NCBI GenBank assembly: GCA_028686345.1
Contig: JAQUCE010000010.1
Location: forward strand, 1 to 64,000
Source: Kiritimatiellia bacterium
Lineage (GTDB): Bacteria; Verrucomicrobiota; Kiritimatiellia; RFP12; UBA1067
Direction: 5' to 3'
Length of the DNA stretch: 64,000 nucleotides
Within the stretch, counting starts at the first letter, position 1, and the number at the start of each line of letters is the position of its first letter. The notes under the pieces were generated by a model that was given only the letters and a program-made list of their open reading frames with translations, did not search any database and was not told where the DNA came from. This document shows, piece after piece, positions 1-11,254 of this stretch. The position numbers and the translations under genes were made by a program.

Positions 1-72
1 GAATCGCAGCTGCTCCTTGAACAGGCCAAGCGTCGCGTTGAAGAGCTGATTGAGCAGGCGGTGCAAGGATGA
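1..72 (+). CDS. C-terminal fragment of an upstream gene (...ESQLLLEQAKRRVEELIEQAVQG*), possibly a type I R-M specificity subunit (HsdS)
   Basis: Open frame from window edge to TGA at 70-72, overlapping the RhuM ATG at 69; tail resembles some HsdS C-termini; RhuM genes often sit next to hsdS. Too short for certainty. Confidence 0.35.
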   Translation, partial: ESQLLLEQAKRRVEELIEQAVQG

Positions 73-1305: not shown

Positions 1306-3290
1306 AACTTCGAAAACTGATTATTGAGAATTATAAATCATTTCAATTCCCTACAGAGATACAATTTCCAGATAACGAAAATGGTAAAAGCATTTTCTTG
1401 ATTGGCGGTATGAATGGGGCTGGAAAATCATCACTTCTGGAAGCCATCAATTTTTGTTTGTACGGTGCTAAGAATGAAGAGATCTTCAGGAACATCAATC
1501 GTAAGGAAAAGGCCCTTAATAACACTGCCGTTTCCTTTGAAATTGCACTTGAAGAAGATGATGGAGGAGAGTTAGTAGTCAAGCGTTCATGGACAGCCGG
1601 AACGATTGATGACCCGAAGGCAAAGGACTTAACCGAAAGATTGGTTGTTGTCAAAGATGGGAAGCGGGTTACTGTTCAAAACAAAGAGATCTGGCAAGAG
1701 TACATTCGCGCGGCAATCCCGCAGAGCATTACACAGTTTTTCTTCTTTGACGGTGAAAAAATACAGGAAATCGCATCCGATGATCATTCAGAGGTTCGCT
1801 TGCAGTCTTCGCTCGAGGCAGCTCTTGGTATTCAAAGTATAAATCGCCTTGCATCAGATATTGCTTACCTCAAACAGGAGGAGCGCAAGGGGTTTGTCGA
1901 TATAACGGATGCAGACCTTGAATTTAAAGAAAGCGAGCTAAAACGCGAAAAAAGCAAACTTGCAATCAAGCGAACAGAAAAAGATGAGGTCAAAGCCGAA
2001 ATAGATGCATTCACTGAGCAACAGGAAGATGCCAAAGTCCGCTTTCAGGCTATTTTCAATCAATCTCCCGAGTCAAAAGAAAAAATTCGTCAAAATGAAA
2101 AAAAGCGAATACAGCTCTCTAATCGATTGAGTCAATTGGAATCTGAAATAAAGATACTATGCGAATCTGTTTTGCCATTTGCGCTTGCCGGGAAATTTTT
2201 TGATGATATTCGACTTCAAATAGAGAGTGAAAGAACGACTGCACAGAGCGAGGCTATTCGTGAGCATTCAGCCGAGCTTGCAAAGAAAATTGTCCGTGTT
2301 GTAGAAGAGCCTGAACCAATCTTCAAAGAAAAGCTTTCTGCTGACAAGATGGCAGAACTTGAGAAGCGGATCGAAATCTTATTAAAAGATGGCAAGTCTA
2401 CTGGCATAGAAAAAATTCTCGGTCTTTCTGAGCGTGATGCCGCACGCGTATTGAATCAAATTGAGACTTTGGAAAAAAGCGACATATTTTTAATTGCGCC
2501 GCTTATTGAGGAGAAAAAAGAGCTTTGTATTCAGCTAAAAGACTTGGAATCTTCAGTTCGGAGCAAAGGAGCTTCGGAATCTGAGCAGGAACTTTTCGCG
2601 CAACTTCAAGAAATCATCGAGAGTAGTGCAATTCAAATAGGAAGAAAAACAGAACAGCTTCGTATTATAGAAGATGATCTTTTAGCTATTGATAACAGAA
2701 TCAAAGAGATAGAGTTGGAAATCGAGAGGTTGTATGAGAAGCACCATCTGTCAAAAGATAAAGCTGATTTTATTTCAGAGTGTAACGCTATATCGAATTT
2801 ATTGAATCAATTTGTAGTGAGGCTCAGGAAAAATAAAATTTATTTATTGCAAGAAAAGACGTTTGAAATGTATCGCTTGCTATCCAGTAAAGCGGGTTTG
2901 ATCAAAGATATTTTGATCGATGACAAAACTTATGAAATAAAAATTATTGACCGCTCCGGACATGAAATCAAGAAGTCAGGGCTTTCAGCGGGAGAAAAGG
3001 AAGTGTTTGCAATTTCTTTGCTATGGGGTCTTGCGCAGACGAGTCAGCTGAAACTGCCAATAATCATAGACACCCCACTTTCCAGACTTGATAGTATGCA
3101 CCGTGACAATATTGTAAACAATTACTTCCCTAATGCTGGTGAACAGGTTATTGTTCTTTCAACCGATACTGAAATCGACACAAACTACTATCGAAGCCTA
3201 AAGAGTCATCTTGCTGGCGCTGCAAAGCTTGAGTTCGATCATAAACAAGAGCTTACAACGGTTAAGACTGGTTATTTCTGGGAGGGTTAA
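1302..3290 (+). CDS. DndD-like SMC/ABC ATPase (DNA sulfur modification-type)
   Basis: Walker A GGMNGAGKSSLLEAINFCLYG, QFFFFDGEKIQEIA, central coiled coil, ABC signature LSAGEKEVFAISLLWGLAQ, Walker B LPIIIDTPLSRLD. Confidence 0.88.
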   Translation: MKLRKLIIENYKSFQFPTEIQFPDNENGKSIFLIGGMNGAGKSSLLEAINFCLYGAKNEEIFRNINRKEKALNNTAVSFEIALEEDDGGELVVKRSWTAGTIDDPKAKDLTERLVVVKDGKRVTVQNKEIWQEYIRAAIPQSITQFFFFDGEKIQEIASDDHSEVRLQSSLEAALGIQSINRLASDIAYLKQEERKGFVDITDADLEFKESELKREKSKLAIKRTEKDEVKAEIDAFTEQQEDAKVRFQAIFNQSPESKEKIRQNEKKRIQLSNRLSQLESEIKILCESVLPFALAGKFFDDIRLQIESERTTAQSEAIREHSAELAKKIVRVVEEPEPIFKEKLSADKMAELEKRIEILLKDGKSTGIEKILGLSERDAARVLNQIETLEKSDIFLIAPLIEEKKELCIQLKDLESSVRSKGASESEQELFAQLQEIIESSAIQIGRKTEQLRIIEDDLLAIDNRIKEIELEIERLYEKHHLSKDKADFISECNAISNLLNQFVVRLRKNKIYLLQEKTFEMYRLLSSKAGLIKDILIDDKTYEIKIIDRSGHEIKKSGLSAGEKEVFAISLLWGLAQTSQLKLPIIIDTPLSRLDSMHRDNIVNNYFPNAGEQVIVLSTDTEIDTNYYRSLKSHLAGAAKLEFDHKQELTTVKTGYFWEG

Positions 3291-3292
3291 CA

Positions 3293-4819
3293 ATGGCAGA
3301 CAGATTATATACAACAAGGGAGACCGATGAGATCCTAAGCGCGCTCCGGCTTGAAACTAAACTCGAAAAATACATTCTTGCTCGAATAGCCTTCTCTTTT
3401 TCATTAAGCGAGGATGGCAAAAGTGTTCCTATTTCATCTGACTTTAGCGGTGCAGAGATTAAAAGGCCAACCTTTGTTGGTCAGGATGAACTATTTATAA
3501 AAACGTTTATTCGGGATGTTTACAAAAAAAATGAAATAGAGGAAGATGAGTTTTATTCAAACAAATCAATTATAAAAAACCATATTGATAACGGGGCTCG
3601 CAAGCTAAAAAAGATGTTTGAAGAGTCAGGTAACAATGCTGACCTTCTAATTAAAAAACTTGTGGATAAGATCGAATTTAGAGGCAGAAGAGAGGTTCTA
3701 GGAAAGGGCTTTGAGATTCTCTTAGGTAAAGAATTATTGCAAAAAAATGATGTTTTCATGGATCTGAATAATACGGCAATTCATGCAAATTCACACTTAG
3801 CAATAATGGGAAAACCTGGTGTAGGTAAAACACAATTCCTTTTAAAGATTCTCACTGACATTCGGTTCCAGTCAAATTTCCAAACTAATTTTATCTATTT
3901 TGACTATAAGGGAGATGTCGCTGAGAATCAAAAGTTTTGTGAAATCGCAAAAGTTCAACCTTTTCGACTGCTGCAAGGAGCTCAAACGCTGCCGATCAAT
4001 CCATTCATTCTACCTTCTTATGATGAACAAACCATCAACATATCAGCTAGAGAAAAGGCCGAGAGTTTTGCCTCAATAAACTCAAAGCTTGGTGTTGTTC
4101 AGAAAGGCGCTATGACTGAAGCGATACGAGCTGCATATGCGATGCGGGCAAACTACGATAAACCATATCCGGATTTCAGAGATGTGTATCAAATTGCCAG
4201 TACCGCTTACGAAGAGGAAGGGAAGCGTGATGACAGCTTAATCGAAGTTCTTCGCGATCTATCTGATTTCAATCTTTTCTGGTCGCATGGCTCTGAATTG
4301 CCTCCTATCGAAAAATTAACCGACCGAACATTGCTAATTGATGTTCATGCAATGCCGGTTTTGAAAGAGCTTGTAGCCTATCTGGTAATTGAAAGACTAT
4401 ATAAAGAGATGTCGCTATTACCAGACAGCCCTATCAATGATAACAAGCGCACAATACGAACAATATTAGTCATTGATGAAGCTCATAATTATCTTGGACA
4501 AAAAAATATTTTCTTGCAAAGGATAATCCGAGAAGGGCGTTCAAAAGGCATTGTTGTTTTCTTTGCAAGTCAGTCCCCGAATGACTATCAGCAAAAGTTT
4601 TTTAATTTCCAAGAATTACTTGAATTTGCATATATGTTTCAATGTGAAGGGGTTTCCTCTTCCTCAATTCAAGATATTTTAGGCTGCAGTCCTAAAACGG
4701 CAAAGGATCTTCAAACTGAAGTGGCGCGGCTTGAACCGTGGCAAGTGATAAGTAGAAGTCAGGATAAAAAAGATGAGTTTGTTAAATTTACGGCAGAAGC
4801 ATTTTTTAAGAACTATTAG
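3293..4819 (+). CDS. DndE-like N-terminal domain fused to HerA/FtsK-like ATPase
   Basis: N-term RLYTTRETDEILSALRLETKLEKYILARIAFSFSLSE...DELFIKTFIRDVY...KNHIDNGARKLKK resembles DndE; Walker A MGKPGVGKTQFL, Walker B ILVIDEAHNYLG, RIIREGRSKGIVVFFASQSPND as in HerA-type ATPases. Confidence 0.75.
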   Translation: MADRLYTTRETDEILSALRLETKLEKYILARIAFSFSLSEDGKSVPISSDFSGAEIKRPTFVGQDELFIKTFIRDVYKKNEIEEDEFYSNKSIIKNHIDNGARKLKKMFEESGNNADLLIKKLVDKIEFRGRREVLGKGFEILLGKELLQKNDVFMDLNNTAIHANSHLAIMGKPGVGKTQFLLKILTDIRFQSNFQTNFIYFDYKGDVAENQKFCEIAKVQPFRLLQGAQTLPINPFILPSYDEQTINISAREKAESFASINSKLGVVQKGAMTEAIRAAYAMRANYDKPYPDFRDVYQIASTAYEEEGKRDDSLIEVLRDLSDFNLFWSHGSELPPIEKLTDRTLLIDVHAMPVLKELVAYLVIERLYKEMSLLPDSPINDNKRTIRTILVIDEAHNYLGQKNIFLQRIIREGRSKGIVVFFASQSPNDYQQKFFNFQELLEFAYMFQCEGVSSSSIQDILGCSPKTAKDLQTEVARLEPWQVISRSQDKKDEFVKFTAEAFFKNY

Positions 4820-4984
4820 ATAGAAGCTTGTGGGAGTTTAAATGAAATTTGTAGTACAGGCGTTAGCCTGATTCAAAGCGGGTTATTGAGACGTTACTGT
4901 AAAAGTGATAATGGAGTAGTGCAAGCATCTTGCGTGACACAGATAAAATTTCATTTATATTTGGAGTGAATAAAGCGTAAAATC

Positions 4985-5062
4985 GTGCTGGGATTTTGAC
5001 GCTTCGCGTCTCTATGTTGTTGCGTGCTGGGATTTTGACGCTTCGCGTCTCTATGTTGTTGC
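4985..5062. repeat. two perfect tandem copies of a 39-bp unit (GTGCTGGGATTTTGACGCTTCGCGTCTCTATGTTGTTGC)
   Basis: Read directly: 4985-5023 and 5024-5062. Confidence 0.95.
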
Positions 5063-5150
5063 GCATCAAATCTTTATCCGAAAAAAGAGCCTGTTTTCGG
5101 CCTTTAGAAGGCGATTTAGAGTGTGTTTTTGAGGTTTTAAGGGAGCTAGA
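5028..5150 (+). repeat. dispersed repeat R8, copy 1 (copy 2 inverted at ~55015-55150)
   Basis: TTTTGACGCTTCGCGTCTCTATGTTGTTGCGCATCAA...AAAAGAGCCTGTTTTCGGCCTTTAGAAGGCGATTTAGAGTGTGTTTTT closely matches the reverse complement of 55015-55150. Confidence 0.8.
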
Positions 5151-5497
5151 TCCACGCAGTAGCGCGGAGTGGAGAAATACGTGAGTGAAGGAGGCGTGTC
5201 TTTTGTGCGGTAGCAATGTAGGTCCGGCTTCCAGCCGGACATGGCCCGATGCAAGGGGATCCGTTGAAATCTGGCTTCGCCTTTGGTTGACGATGATGTG
5301 CTCATTCAAGCTGGAAGCGTGAAATGAAATTTCATCAACTTATGAAGATGGTTGTCTGAACTTCTTGTTTTTCATGACAAGAGTTGAAAGAATAGCAATG
5401 AAACGCCTATAAACGTTCGATAGGCAACTTTCAGTAAAGAACAACGATTTGTTTCTGCGGCCCGTAAGGGGCAAAACTTTAAAAAGGAAAGCAATTT

Positions 5498-7748: not shown

Positions 7749-10742
7749 TTAGAATGAATCCCAATACAACCGGTCAATTGCGTAAACATCCAGGGGCTCT
7801 GTATTCACATCAAACGCTTCATCCAGCACACCATAGCGCTTCAGCTCGCGAATATACTCAGGACGGGGCTTGAAGCCAGGCATATCAAAGCGTTTGACCT
7901 GATCCAGCCTCCCCTTGCCGCCCTTGATCATGGCCAGTAGAGTCTGGTAATCCGGGTCATCTTTGGCAGTAAAGACCGCTGCTTGGCTCGGCTCCTGGCG
8001 GCAGAGACCCAAACCGCCACTCTCTTTTGAAAGCGGGGCGCGCAGATAAAGCGATTTCTCCGGGGCGGTCAAATTGAACAGCACATGACGGTTGAAGCGT
8101 ATCCGCGGATCACTCATATCCGGCTGCCAGAAGCTGAGCCCATTCTCATCGCTCAGATACCGGGGTAGTTTCTTGAAATCTTTGTTGTGGCAGCTCCCGC
8201 AGCGTCTCTGATGCACTGGCTGGGCCGCCTGCGTGGCAGGCCAATCACGGTCATTGTTGAGTACCTGGTTGTTCTGCTGATAACCGCCAATGGAACCGCA
8301 TCCCAAAGCCGCGTAAGTGCCGGGATAGGGCGCGCTGGCATCCAGCCACAGAGCTACAGCTCTGAGATCCTCTGCCGAGACCTTCACGTCGTGATGCGAG
8401 CCATCCAGTTTATTCATCAAGGGGCTGCCCCCGCTCCCCAGCGCATACGGCGGATAATTACTACGCGCGTAATTACGACCGTCGGTAACCTGGCCCCAGG
8501 CAACCAAATGATAATAGCCCATGGAGAACATGGGCCCGTGATCCGGCGAAAGATCCACGCCCCCCTTGCGGTCATCCGGGTTGTGACAACGCACACAGGA
8601 TCGGTTCAGCACAGGCTGCACATGTTTCGGAAAGTCCGGCACATCAAAGCTGCGGTCGCCTGCATCTATCTCCGATGGCTGACGCAGCATGGCCTGTGCC
8701 AGGCCGCGTCCGCGTGAGTATGGTGTTGGCGCGCGGGTACGCTCCTCGTGGCAGCCGACACACCCCTGGTGCTCGCCAGGCATCACCTGGGTAAAGCTCT
8801 GCATCCGCTTGACAGCGCGACCCTGCTTGTCCAGCGCCACAAAGAAAACCGGACGCAGTGCCGGTACCTCAAAATTAGCTGATCCATCCTCCTCAACCGG
8901 CACAGTTCCCAGCACCCGCGGCAGAGTGAAGGTGCCGACATAGCTGAGCGGATCCATGCCCCCGGTGAAGTTGATGGGCTTGGGCAAGCTCTCCAGGATC
9001 ATCAGTTTTGTGATGGTGCCGCGCTGAACCTCCCGCATCTGCCGGCCCTCGTAAATGTCCTCCAGGAAAAGCACTCCGACTGCTTTAGAGGGATCTGTTT
9101 TATCAGCAATCACAGCCTCCCGTTCACGCGGCATTACAGGCCGCGGCTCATGCAGCTGACAATTTTTAAACTCCTCGGGCAGCTGATAAATTACACTCTC
9201 GGCCCCGGCATTGTTCATCACTACCAGCTCGCGCCCTTTAGCAACCATAAAAAGATCGTCGCTGAAGGCCCAGGGATCACGATAATCTCTGCCGCTGCTC
9301 ACACGTGTTAAGTTGCTCTTTTGGTCAGGGCCCTGTTTGGCGGAGACACGGGCCAGAAAGCCCCGATGCTCCTCCGCGCCATGGCCGGGCGAGTCAATCA
9401 TGATCACATCGGAGCTGCCTGGAATCGGCTTGGCATCAATGAAAAGACCGCCGGGGTGTTGGTTGCCAAAAAATACATTGTGCAGGGTTCCATCCGGGTT
9501 CATGGTCCAGAGGTGGTGATAATGGACCTGGCTGCGGTCAATATACTCCCAGCGCATGTAGAGCAGCCGCCCATCCGGTAATGGCCAGGGAGTGTTGTCC
9601 TGCTCAATGTTACTGGAGAGCATGCGGATGTTCTTCCCGCCAGCCCGCAACTCTTCAGCCGAAGGATCAAGATCACAGCGGTAAAGCGTGGCAACCTGCG
9701 TCAGCCAGCAGTTGACCCAGCGTTTGGCACGGCCGGAGCAGAAGGCGACTCCCCCGTCAGGCAGATAGCAGGGCTCAATATCATCATAGCCCCCTGCTGT
9801 TACCTGCCGCAACTGCGAGCCATCCAGATTAATCTCATAGAGGTGATAGTGCCCGTCGCCAGGCGGGCGCATGGAGAACAAAACACGTCCGCCATCATAG
9901 CTGACACAAGGATCACGCACCGTGCCACCCTCATCCTCAACCAGCAACCGCAATTTGCCTGTTTGAATGTTCCATACGCAGAGGCGCCCTTCGGTGCCAT
10001 AGGTCACCCGCTCCGGACCATCGCAATAATACCCGAAGTTGGCGTACCAATGCCCGTCATTGACATCATTGCGGGTGGCGAAAACAATCTCCTCCAAAGC
10101 TCCGTATTTACCGGCTCGCAGCTCCTGCGCGTATTCCCGGATATCGCGCACCACCAGCTCAGCGGGAAACACGGTGCAGAGCCGCACGCAGTCGTAGATC
10201 AACCAGCTCCCTTTGGTCAGTGCGATCTCAAGTTTATTCGCGCCTTTCAGAAACAGCGCTGGCTCAATCTCAAAGGTCGCGTGCGCTTTACGAATGCCGC
10301 GCTCCGCGCTGCCGGAAGCATCACCGGAGCCGTTCGGAGCACTTTGTTCACCAGCCGCATGGCCGTTAACACGGATCTGAATGACTGGATTTTTAAGGGA
10401 GTTGAGTTGCTCAATGATCAGGAAGAGCGGGGCGGACGGCTGCTCCGCCAGCTCAAAACAGAGCGTAAAGGGGTGACTTCGGCTGCCAGCCCAAACATCG
10501 TCAACGCTGGGGTGAATATAGGGCCAACTCTCGGCAACAGCCGATTGGCCGATCGTGAAAACAACCGGCTCTTTGATTTCAGCGGCGTATTGCTGCCACC
10601 CGGTTCCCTGTCCCAGCTTAAATTCTGCCGCAGACCCATCCGCTCGGCCGATTTTAAAAATCGTGTCCGGCAACGCCGCACAGGCCGACCAGGCGACGAT
10701 CAGCACAGCCGTCAAAATAATTTTGCGAGTTAAAAGCTTCAT
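7749..10742 (-). CDS. secreted beta-propeller protein with three c-type heme CxxCH motifs (HzsA-like / TolB-like PVC family)
   Basis: Signal peptide MKLLTRKIILTAVLIVAWSACAALP; TolB/WD-like GTEGRLCVWNIQTGKLRLLVEDEGGTVRDPCVSYDGGRVLFS; CVGCHEE, CVRCHNP, CGSCHNK motifs. Confidence 0.8.
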   Translation of the reverse strand: MKLLTRKIILTAVLIVAWSACAALPDTIFKIGRADGSAAEFKLGQGTGWQQYAAEIKEPVVFTIGQSAVAESWPYIHPSVDDVWAGSRSHPFTLCFELAEQPSAPLFLIIEQLNSLKNPVIQIRVNGHAAGEQSAPNGSGDASGSAERGIRKAHATFEIEPALFLKGANKLEIALTKGSWLIYDCVRLCTVFPAELVVRDIREYAQELRAGKYGALEEIVFATRNDVNDGHWYANFGYYCDGPERVTYGTEGRLCVWNIQTGKLRLLVEDEGGTVRDPCVSYDGGRVLFSMRPPGDGHYHLYEINLDGSQLRQVTAGGYDDIEPCYLPDGGVAFCSGRAKRWVNCWLTQVATLYRCDLDPSAEELRAGGKNIRMLSSNIEQDNTPWPLPDGRLLYMRWEYIDRSQVHYHHLWTMNPDGTLHNVFFGNQHPGGLFIDAKPIPGSSDVIMIDSPGHGAEEHRGFLARVSAKQGPDQKSNLTRVSSGRDYRDPWAFSDDLFMVAKGRELVVMNNAGAESVIYQLPEEFKNCQLHEPRPVMPREREAVIADKTDPSKAVGVLFLEDIYEGRQMREVQRGTITKLMILESLPKPINFTGGMDPLSYVGTFTLPRVLGTVPVEEDGSANFEVPALRPVFFVALDKQGRAVKRMQSFTQVMPGEHQGCVGCHEERTRAPTPYSRGRGLAQAMLRQPSEIDAGDRSFDVPDFPKHVQPVLNRSCVRCHNPDDRKGGVDLSPDHGPMFSMGYYHLVAWGQVTDGRNYARSNYPPYALGSGGSPLMNKLDGSHHDVKVSAEDLRAVALWLDASAPYPGTYAALGCGSIGGYQQNNQVLNNDRDWPATQAAQPVHQRRCGSCHNKDFKKLPRYLSDENGLSFWQPDMSDPRIRFNRHVLFNLTAPEKSLYLRAPLSKESGGLGLCRQEPSQAAVFTAKDDPDYQTLLAMIKGGKGRLDQVKRFDMPGFKPRPEYIRELKRYGVLDEAFDVNTEPLDVYAIDRLYWDSF

Positions 10743-11254
10743 GCAAATACCTCTTGCGAACAAAGTAATCAAGATCCACCCCCTTTGAAAACTACTGCGC
10801 TGCATGCAGATTTAAGGTTTCGATTGTTCCAGATTGAAGCAATAAGATAACAGAAAATTTGGATTAATAACAGCATGTATATGCATTTTAAGCTGGCCGT
10901 CAACTTGCCGGCGAAGTGAAAGTGTAGTGCAATGCCAGCCCAGATCACTGGACATAGAGGGCACGCTAGGTTGTTTTTGGGGTAGAAAAATAGATGGGTA
11001 GAAAAACGGGGTAGCGTTTTTTAGGTAAAAAATGGGGAACCCCGGGAGGGTGGAGCTCTGGCGCAGCTCTTTGTGATTAAAACAAACGGCAAAAGCACTA
11101 AATTTTTCACTTCTATGTCCAGTGGTCTGCAGCCATAGCTGCAAGGAACGCGACAAAACCGCCTCGCAGAATGAAAATTGCTGGTGCAGAGGTGCGAAGA
11201 ATCGCCAAAGTTTGCGACCTTTCTGGCCGATTATTGAGAAGTTATCTTGGTTTT

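Follow-up and report, generated by a model that had tools for sequence, protein, structure and literature searches.

The function of DndD and DndE outside sulfur chemistry is debated. In a 64,000-nucleotide stretch of Kiritimatiellia DNA (the window), a DndE domain is fused to a HerA/FtsK-type ATPase, and the fusion gene adjoins one for DndD. The initial annotation was right about the DndE domain, the ATPase and the DndD partner, but it overlooked that these belong to a methylation operon without phosphorothioate (PT) chemistry (Table 1). We conclude that the operon is most likely of a DNA-methylating restriction type, not one for the sulfur modification suggested by its Dnd names.

Table 1. 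Genes of the operon, in window coordinates unless contig C190 of the same genome is named.
Feature	Position	Strand	Evidence or remark
HSDR_N + N6-methyltransferase, 909 aa	C190 (L097) 1426-4155	minus	HSDR_N_2 1.6e-21, N6_Mtase 8e-35
HsdS, 461 aa	C190 (L097) 56-1441	minus	Methylase_S 1.7e-6
hsdS 3' end (LLEQAKRRVEELIEQAVQG-stop)	1..68	+	remainder on contig C190
RhuM family protein, 353 aa	69..1130	+	PF13310 7e-107
Sp-DndD small protein, 63 aa	1114..1305	+	PF20306 1.3e-12
DndD, Rad50/SMC-like ABC ATPase, 662 aa	1302..3290	+	TIGR03185
DndE-HerA fusion, 508 aa	3293..4819	+	PF08870, DndH HMM, 7ES4, DndE structures, AF2 models

Domains and structure of the fusion protein

The fusion starts with an ATG 2 nt past the DndD stop and is laid out as a DndE domain (residues 4-110), a linker (~111-140) and a HerA/FtsK ATPase (141-508). 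That residues ~1-110 are DndE, as first proposed, was borne out by Pfam, which placed PF08870 at residues 4-110 (E 2.6e-14, 53.9 bits vs. a cut-off of 25). NCBIfam TIGR03184 also matched (5e-11), but at 43 bits it stayed below its equivalog cut-off of 71.85. A structural check on residues 1-121 (AlphaFold model with pLDDT 96.1 and pTM 0.90) did not refute this assignment, as the 17 top PDB matches were all DndE (7X4E, 4LRV, 5WTU; E 9e-5 to 1e-2) and the first non-DndE match had an E of about 1. The same DndE structures, 7X4E, 5WTU and 4LRV, were retrieved at 6e-6 to 2e-4 with a profile made from 34 fusion relatives.

The reading of the C-terminal part as a HerA/FtsK ATPase also held. Residues ~140-508 matched DndH HMMs at 2.8e-41, aligning only with positions 1292-1712 of the 1715 in the DndH profile, which is its C-terminal HerA part. 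The best PDB match of this ATPase was the DptH C-domain 7ES4, both by phmmer (3.8e-22) and in a separate Foldseek search of the ATPase half (7e-25, TMt 0.88). Its motifs are intact, with Walker A residues G173, G176, G178, K179 and T180 and Walker B residues I394-D395-E396, plus R413 and Q427, conserved at 96-100% among 56 full-length relatives. The AlphaFold model of the full-length fusion (pLDDT 89.7, pTM 0.71) has two domains, and a short linker at 130-137 is disordered in it. The proposed partner, the adjacent DndD, was identified above its equivalog cut-off (TIGR03185, 365 bits vs. 245.85), and its Walker A/B and signature motifs are conserved in 46 relatives.

DNA binding by the DndE domain of the fusion is plausible because the basic residues R19 and K23 are retained. 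R19 is present in 51 of 56 relatives and aligns with E. coli K20; position 23 is lysine or arginine in 51 of 56, and K23 aligns with the site where published lysine mutants bound DNA more strongly. For the recognition of nicks or ends proposed initially, which would be a further property, the comparison is with N. bangense DndE: its residues responsible for binding nicked DNA, R19 and K23, align with S16 and L/F20 of the fusion, and the fusion's own R19 and K23 sit at positions neighbouring these.

Gene content of the operon and its relatives

The window starts where its contig (C182) does, and the missing upstream genes turned up at the end of C190 when relatives of those genes were used as queries against the same genome. 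The end of C190 and the window start overlap by 127 identical bp. The operon thus joined runs from the HSDR_N-methyltransferase through HsdS, RhuM, Sp-DndD and DndD to DndE-HerA. In the methyltransferase, the nuclease residues D119, E136 and K138 are 97-100% conserved (34 methyltransferases); the DPxCGS and NPPF motifs are conserved too, and the modified base would be m6A, judging by the family and the NPPF motif. A gene for a UvrD-type (SF1) helicase lies 1.3 kb upstream; it was not identified as a member of the conserved operon. At the other end, a short tandem duplication lies between DndE-HerA and the next gene (4863-5309), where a minus-strand ORF repeats ARNNIETRSVKIP.

RhuM, found in 18 loci, occupies an optional accessory slot between HsdS and Sp-DndD, which in other loci holds a DUF1016/YhcG nuclease, a Macro-domain protein or putative reader proteins of ~210 aa. 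Sp-DndD resembles the C-terminal tail of DndC (TIGR03183 positions 395-446, 1.4e-5; PADLOC DndC 5e-8) and is likely a DndD docking piece. The similarity covers the final ~55 residues of DndC, as though a docking tail had become its own gene.

A scan of genome contigs yielded 79 loci, mostly with a fusion of 508 or 509 aa; their record titles name Pseudomonadota, Bacillota, Bacteroidota, Desulfobacterota, Cloacimonadota, Chloroflexi, Nitrospirae and other groups. Cultured carriers include Halalkalibacter oceani 214.1.1, Bowmanella sp. JS7-9 and Methylotuvimicrobium buryatense 5G. Because nearly identical proteins of 508 aa (63-85% identity) are spread over many phyla, the fusion pattern is not due to chance. 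Among 388 genomes of the window's phylum, relatives of the fusion were found only in its own genome; plasmids and phages gave only 24-28% matches, mainly to the HerA part, and E. coli gave no DNA match. A DndD gene accompanied 54 of the 56 full-length relatives. Other neighbours were counted in the 40 relatives for which 7.5 kb or more of upstream sequence was available, where a ~900-aa methyltransferase was present in 30, upstream and on the same strand every time, and an HsdS-size partner in 31. Across whole genomes, the methyltransferase was found in 36 of 44 carriers.

These genes also co-varied. Mean identity over 27 complete loci was 77% for HerA and for the methyltransferase core, 68% for DndD and 59% for DndE, vs. 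29% for HsdS. Pairwise identities of HerA correlated with those of DndD at r=0.96, of the methyltransferase at 0.87 and of HsdS at 0.43. Identity matrices of DndE, HerA, DndD and the methyltransferase correlated at r 0.77-0.96, and at 0.37-0.45 with HsdS, with and without the outlier L061. The low HsdS mean beside that of HerA and the methyltransferase core indicates that specificity is swapped at HsdS. HsdS is exchanged while the other genes move as a unit, the pattern that a target-setting role of HsdS would produce.

Either half of the operon was also found without the other. Seven genomes of the window's phylum contain a related, shorter methyltransferase (~670-800 aa, 44-47% identity), with HSDR_N and N6_Mtase domains in all three that were run through Pfam. 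It is followed by an HsdS-size gene in all seven (recognised by Pfam in one of two checked), and neither DndD nor HsdR was evident near it in these genomes. Therefore, the two-gene unit can exist by itself, with the motor as an add-on; the most parsimonious history is the acquisition of an ATPase module by a restriction unit that was already self-sufficient with its two genes. Conversely, the cluster of methyltransferase and HsdS was absent from 7 of the 40 neighbourhoods. Sp-DndD, DndD and DndE-HerA occur with no methyltransferase nearby at L057, L062, L025 and L077, so the nuclease-methylase is either not always required or located elsewhere. At L039 (4556-8006), DndD and DndE-HerA adjoin an unrelated type II restriction-modification pair, a PF01555 methylase and a TdeIII endonuclease. 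The pair at L077 (7545-11194) is distant (29% identity) and lies beside BatA/BatD-type genes; DndE was not found by Pfam in its fusion, yet the N-terminus aligns.

At L057 and L062, a ~210-aa protein is encoded in two or three copies. This family shares an N-terminal motif, LrEIaKAIEqLEK.GvPVPdeLR.LK, in a region without a Pfam name, and its C-termini are swappable (RAMA, Mrr_N-like or other helix-turn-helix-like). These proteins may be a modular family of modification readers. They lie at L057:3824-5750, L062:6725-7984, L031:5962-8009 and L005:5988-6617 and 10349-10984; none was seen in the window.

Proposed mechanism and alternatives

What was observed are the domains, the intactness of the catalytic motifs, the order of the genes, their co-variation and the absence of PT genes. 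Our best explanation, held with moderate confidence, is that the operon encodes a restriction system based on methylation, with a DndD/DndE-HerA motor working for the two-gene nuclease-methylase/HsdS unit. HsdS would select the DNA sequence, the methyltransferase would mark that sequence on self DNA, and the fused HSDR_N PD-(D/E)xK domain would be the nuclease of this restriction-modification unit. Sp-DndD, DndD and DndE-HerA would form an add-on ATPase module with DndE-HerA as its motor subunit. The Rad50/SMC-like DndD and the DndE domain would hold DNA and load or position the HerA-type ring, which would scan or pull unmethylated DNA, leading to cutting by the nuclease. Self-marking via methylation is well supported. 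How the motor acts is our inference, as are the formation of a complex, the assembly of the ring, its translocation, the cutting step and gating of the motor by methylation.

A broader version of this explanation is more tentative, and we would put it somewhat short of probable. DndD and DndE-HerA, with an Sp-DndD detached from DndC, would be a portable motor that plugs into unrelated restriction-modification units (HSDR_N-methylase/HsdS or the TdeIII pair) or modification readers, without sulfur chemistry. If so, the module would stand in for the helicase motor found in type I restriction enzymes, and DndD and DndE would basically be parts for handling DNA, not enzymes of phosphorothioation. 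Since one ATPase module is naturally paired with several kinds of restriction unit, the roles of DndD and DndE can be tested apart from sulfur chemistry.

Methylation could also be the self mark of a BREX- or SMC-like blocking system, in which DndD/DndE-HerA stops or clamps invader DNA uncut or triggers growth arrest and HSDR_N is secondary. The methyltransferase-free versions with repeated ~210-aa genes (RAMA/Mrr_N-type C-termini) indicate that the ATPase module has a role without the HSDR_N nuclease. Still, we consider blocking unlikely, as the nuclease residues are strongly conserved in the methyltransferases and the L039 version, too, has a restriction endonuclease. More doubtful is the idea that two systems, a two-gene restriction-modification unit and a DndD/DndE-HerA defence of its own kind, lie next to each other independently and simply co-travel. 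It could account for the occurrence of either half alone, but not readily for the order and strand fixed in 30 of 30 loci, the close spacing of the genes, identities that co-vary across phyla (r=0.87) or the distinct clade formed by DndD-linked methyltransferases (60-100% identity inside, 44-47% to unlinked relatives).

A PT system, in which DndE sees nicks and the motor travels along DNA, was rejected as very improbable. In its favour, DndD exceeds its equivalog cut-off, the DndE fold is confirmed and Rakesh et al. 2024 (PMC10853773) class the fusion under PT-modification systems, but the window's genome has no full-length DndC (its sole DndC-profile match is Sp-DndD, at positions 387-446), DndC occurs in just 4 of 44 carrier genomes above the cut-off and one near it, unlinked to the operon and in none of the fetched neighbourhoods, and the modification slot is filled by the methyltransferase and HsdS. 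With methyltransferase neighbours and no sulfur enzymes, the gene name "DNA sulfur modification protein" is probably wrong for function in these operons, and software that infers PT systems from just DndD or DndE would predict too many.

Comparison with known systems

The initial annotation had left room for the fusion being already well characterised, and a prior computational description does exist. The fusion is not new, because Rakesh, Aravind and Krishnan 2024 (PMC10853773, section 22) described computationally a DndE-HerA fusion beside DndD, with a "clade-3" HerA/FtsK, and filed it as a subset of PT-modification systems; no experimental study was found in the literature searched. The architecture and DndD neighbour are the same here, and the window's fusion appears to belong to this clade-3. 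By contrast with that account, modification here is encoded by genes for HsdS and an N6-type methyltransferase, and PT genes are absent; the only methylases mentioned in that paper's main text are cytosine methylases, in connection with the CxC clade. The methyltransferase link of DndE-HerA/DndD may have had earlier notice in the literature.

The closest HerA domain by HMM and structure is that of DndH/DptH from DndFGH. However, DndH is ~1700 aa long and carries numerous N-terminal domains, among them a nuclease of its own, whereas the HerA domain here is joined to DndE only, and neither the DndH N-terminal domains nor its REase was found in the fusion. The methylation-associated defence system (MADS, PADLOC mad1-8), whose eight genes include a kinase, likewise combines a HerA-like ATPase with a methyltransferase and an S subunit. 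Its mad2, mad5 and mad8 models match operon genes, though more weakly than other families do, and the mad8 match is without DndE, unlike the fusion; a mad7 search of the window's genome, run without a positive control, gave no match. PbeABCD/CxC-DndE systems also pair an ABC ATPase with DndE, but as described in PMC10853773 their DndE is stand-alone and accompanied by an HKD nuclease-SF2 helicase protein.

Finally, the operon resembles type I restriction-modification in its HsdM-type (N6-type) methyltransferase, its HsdS and its HSDR_N nuclease domain. It differs in that no SF2 gene, and hence no HsdR with an SF2 translocase, is present in the operon, and the nuclease is instead fused to the methyltransferase. 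The role of the type I motor would here be taken by DndD and DndE-HerA.
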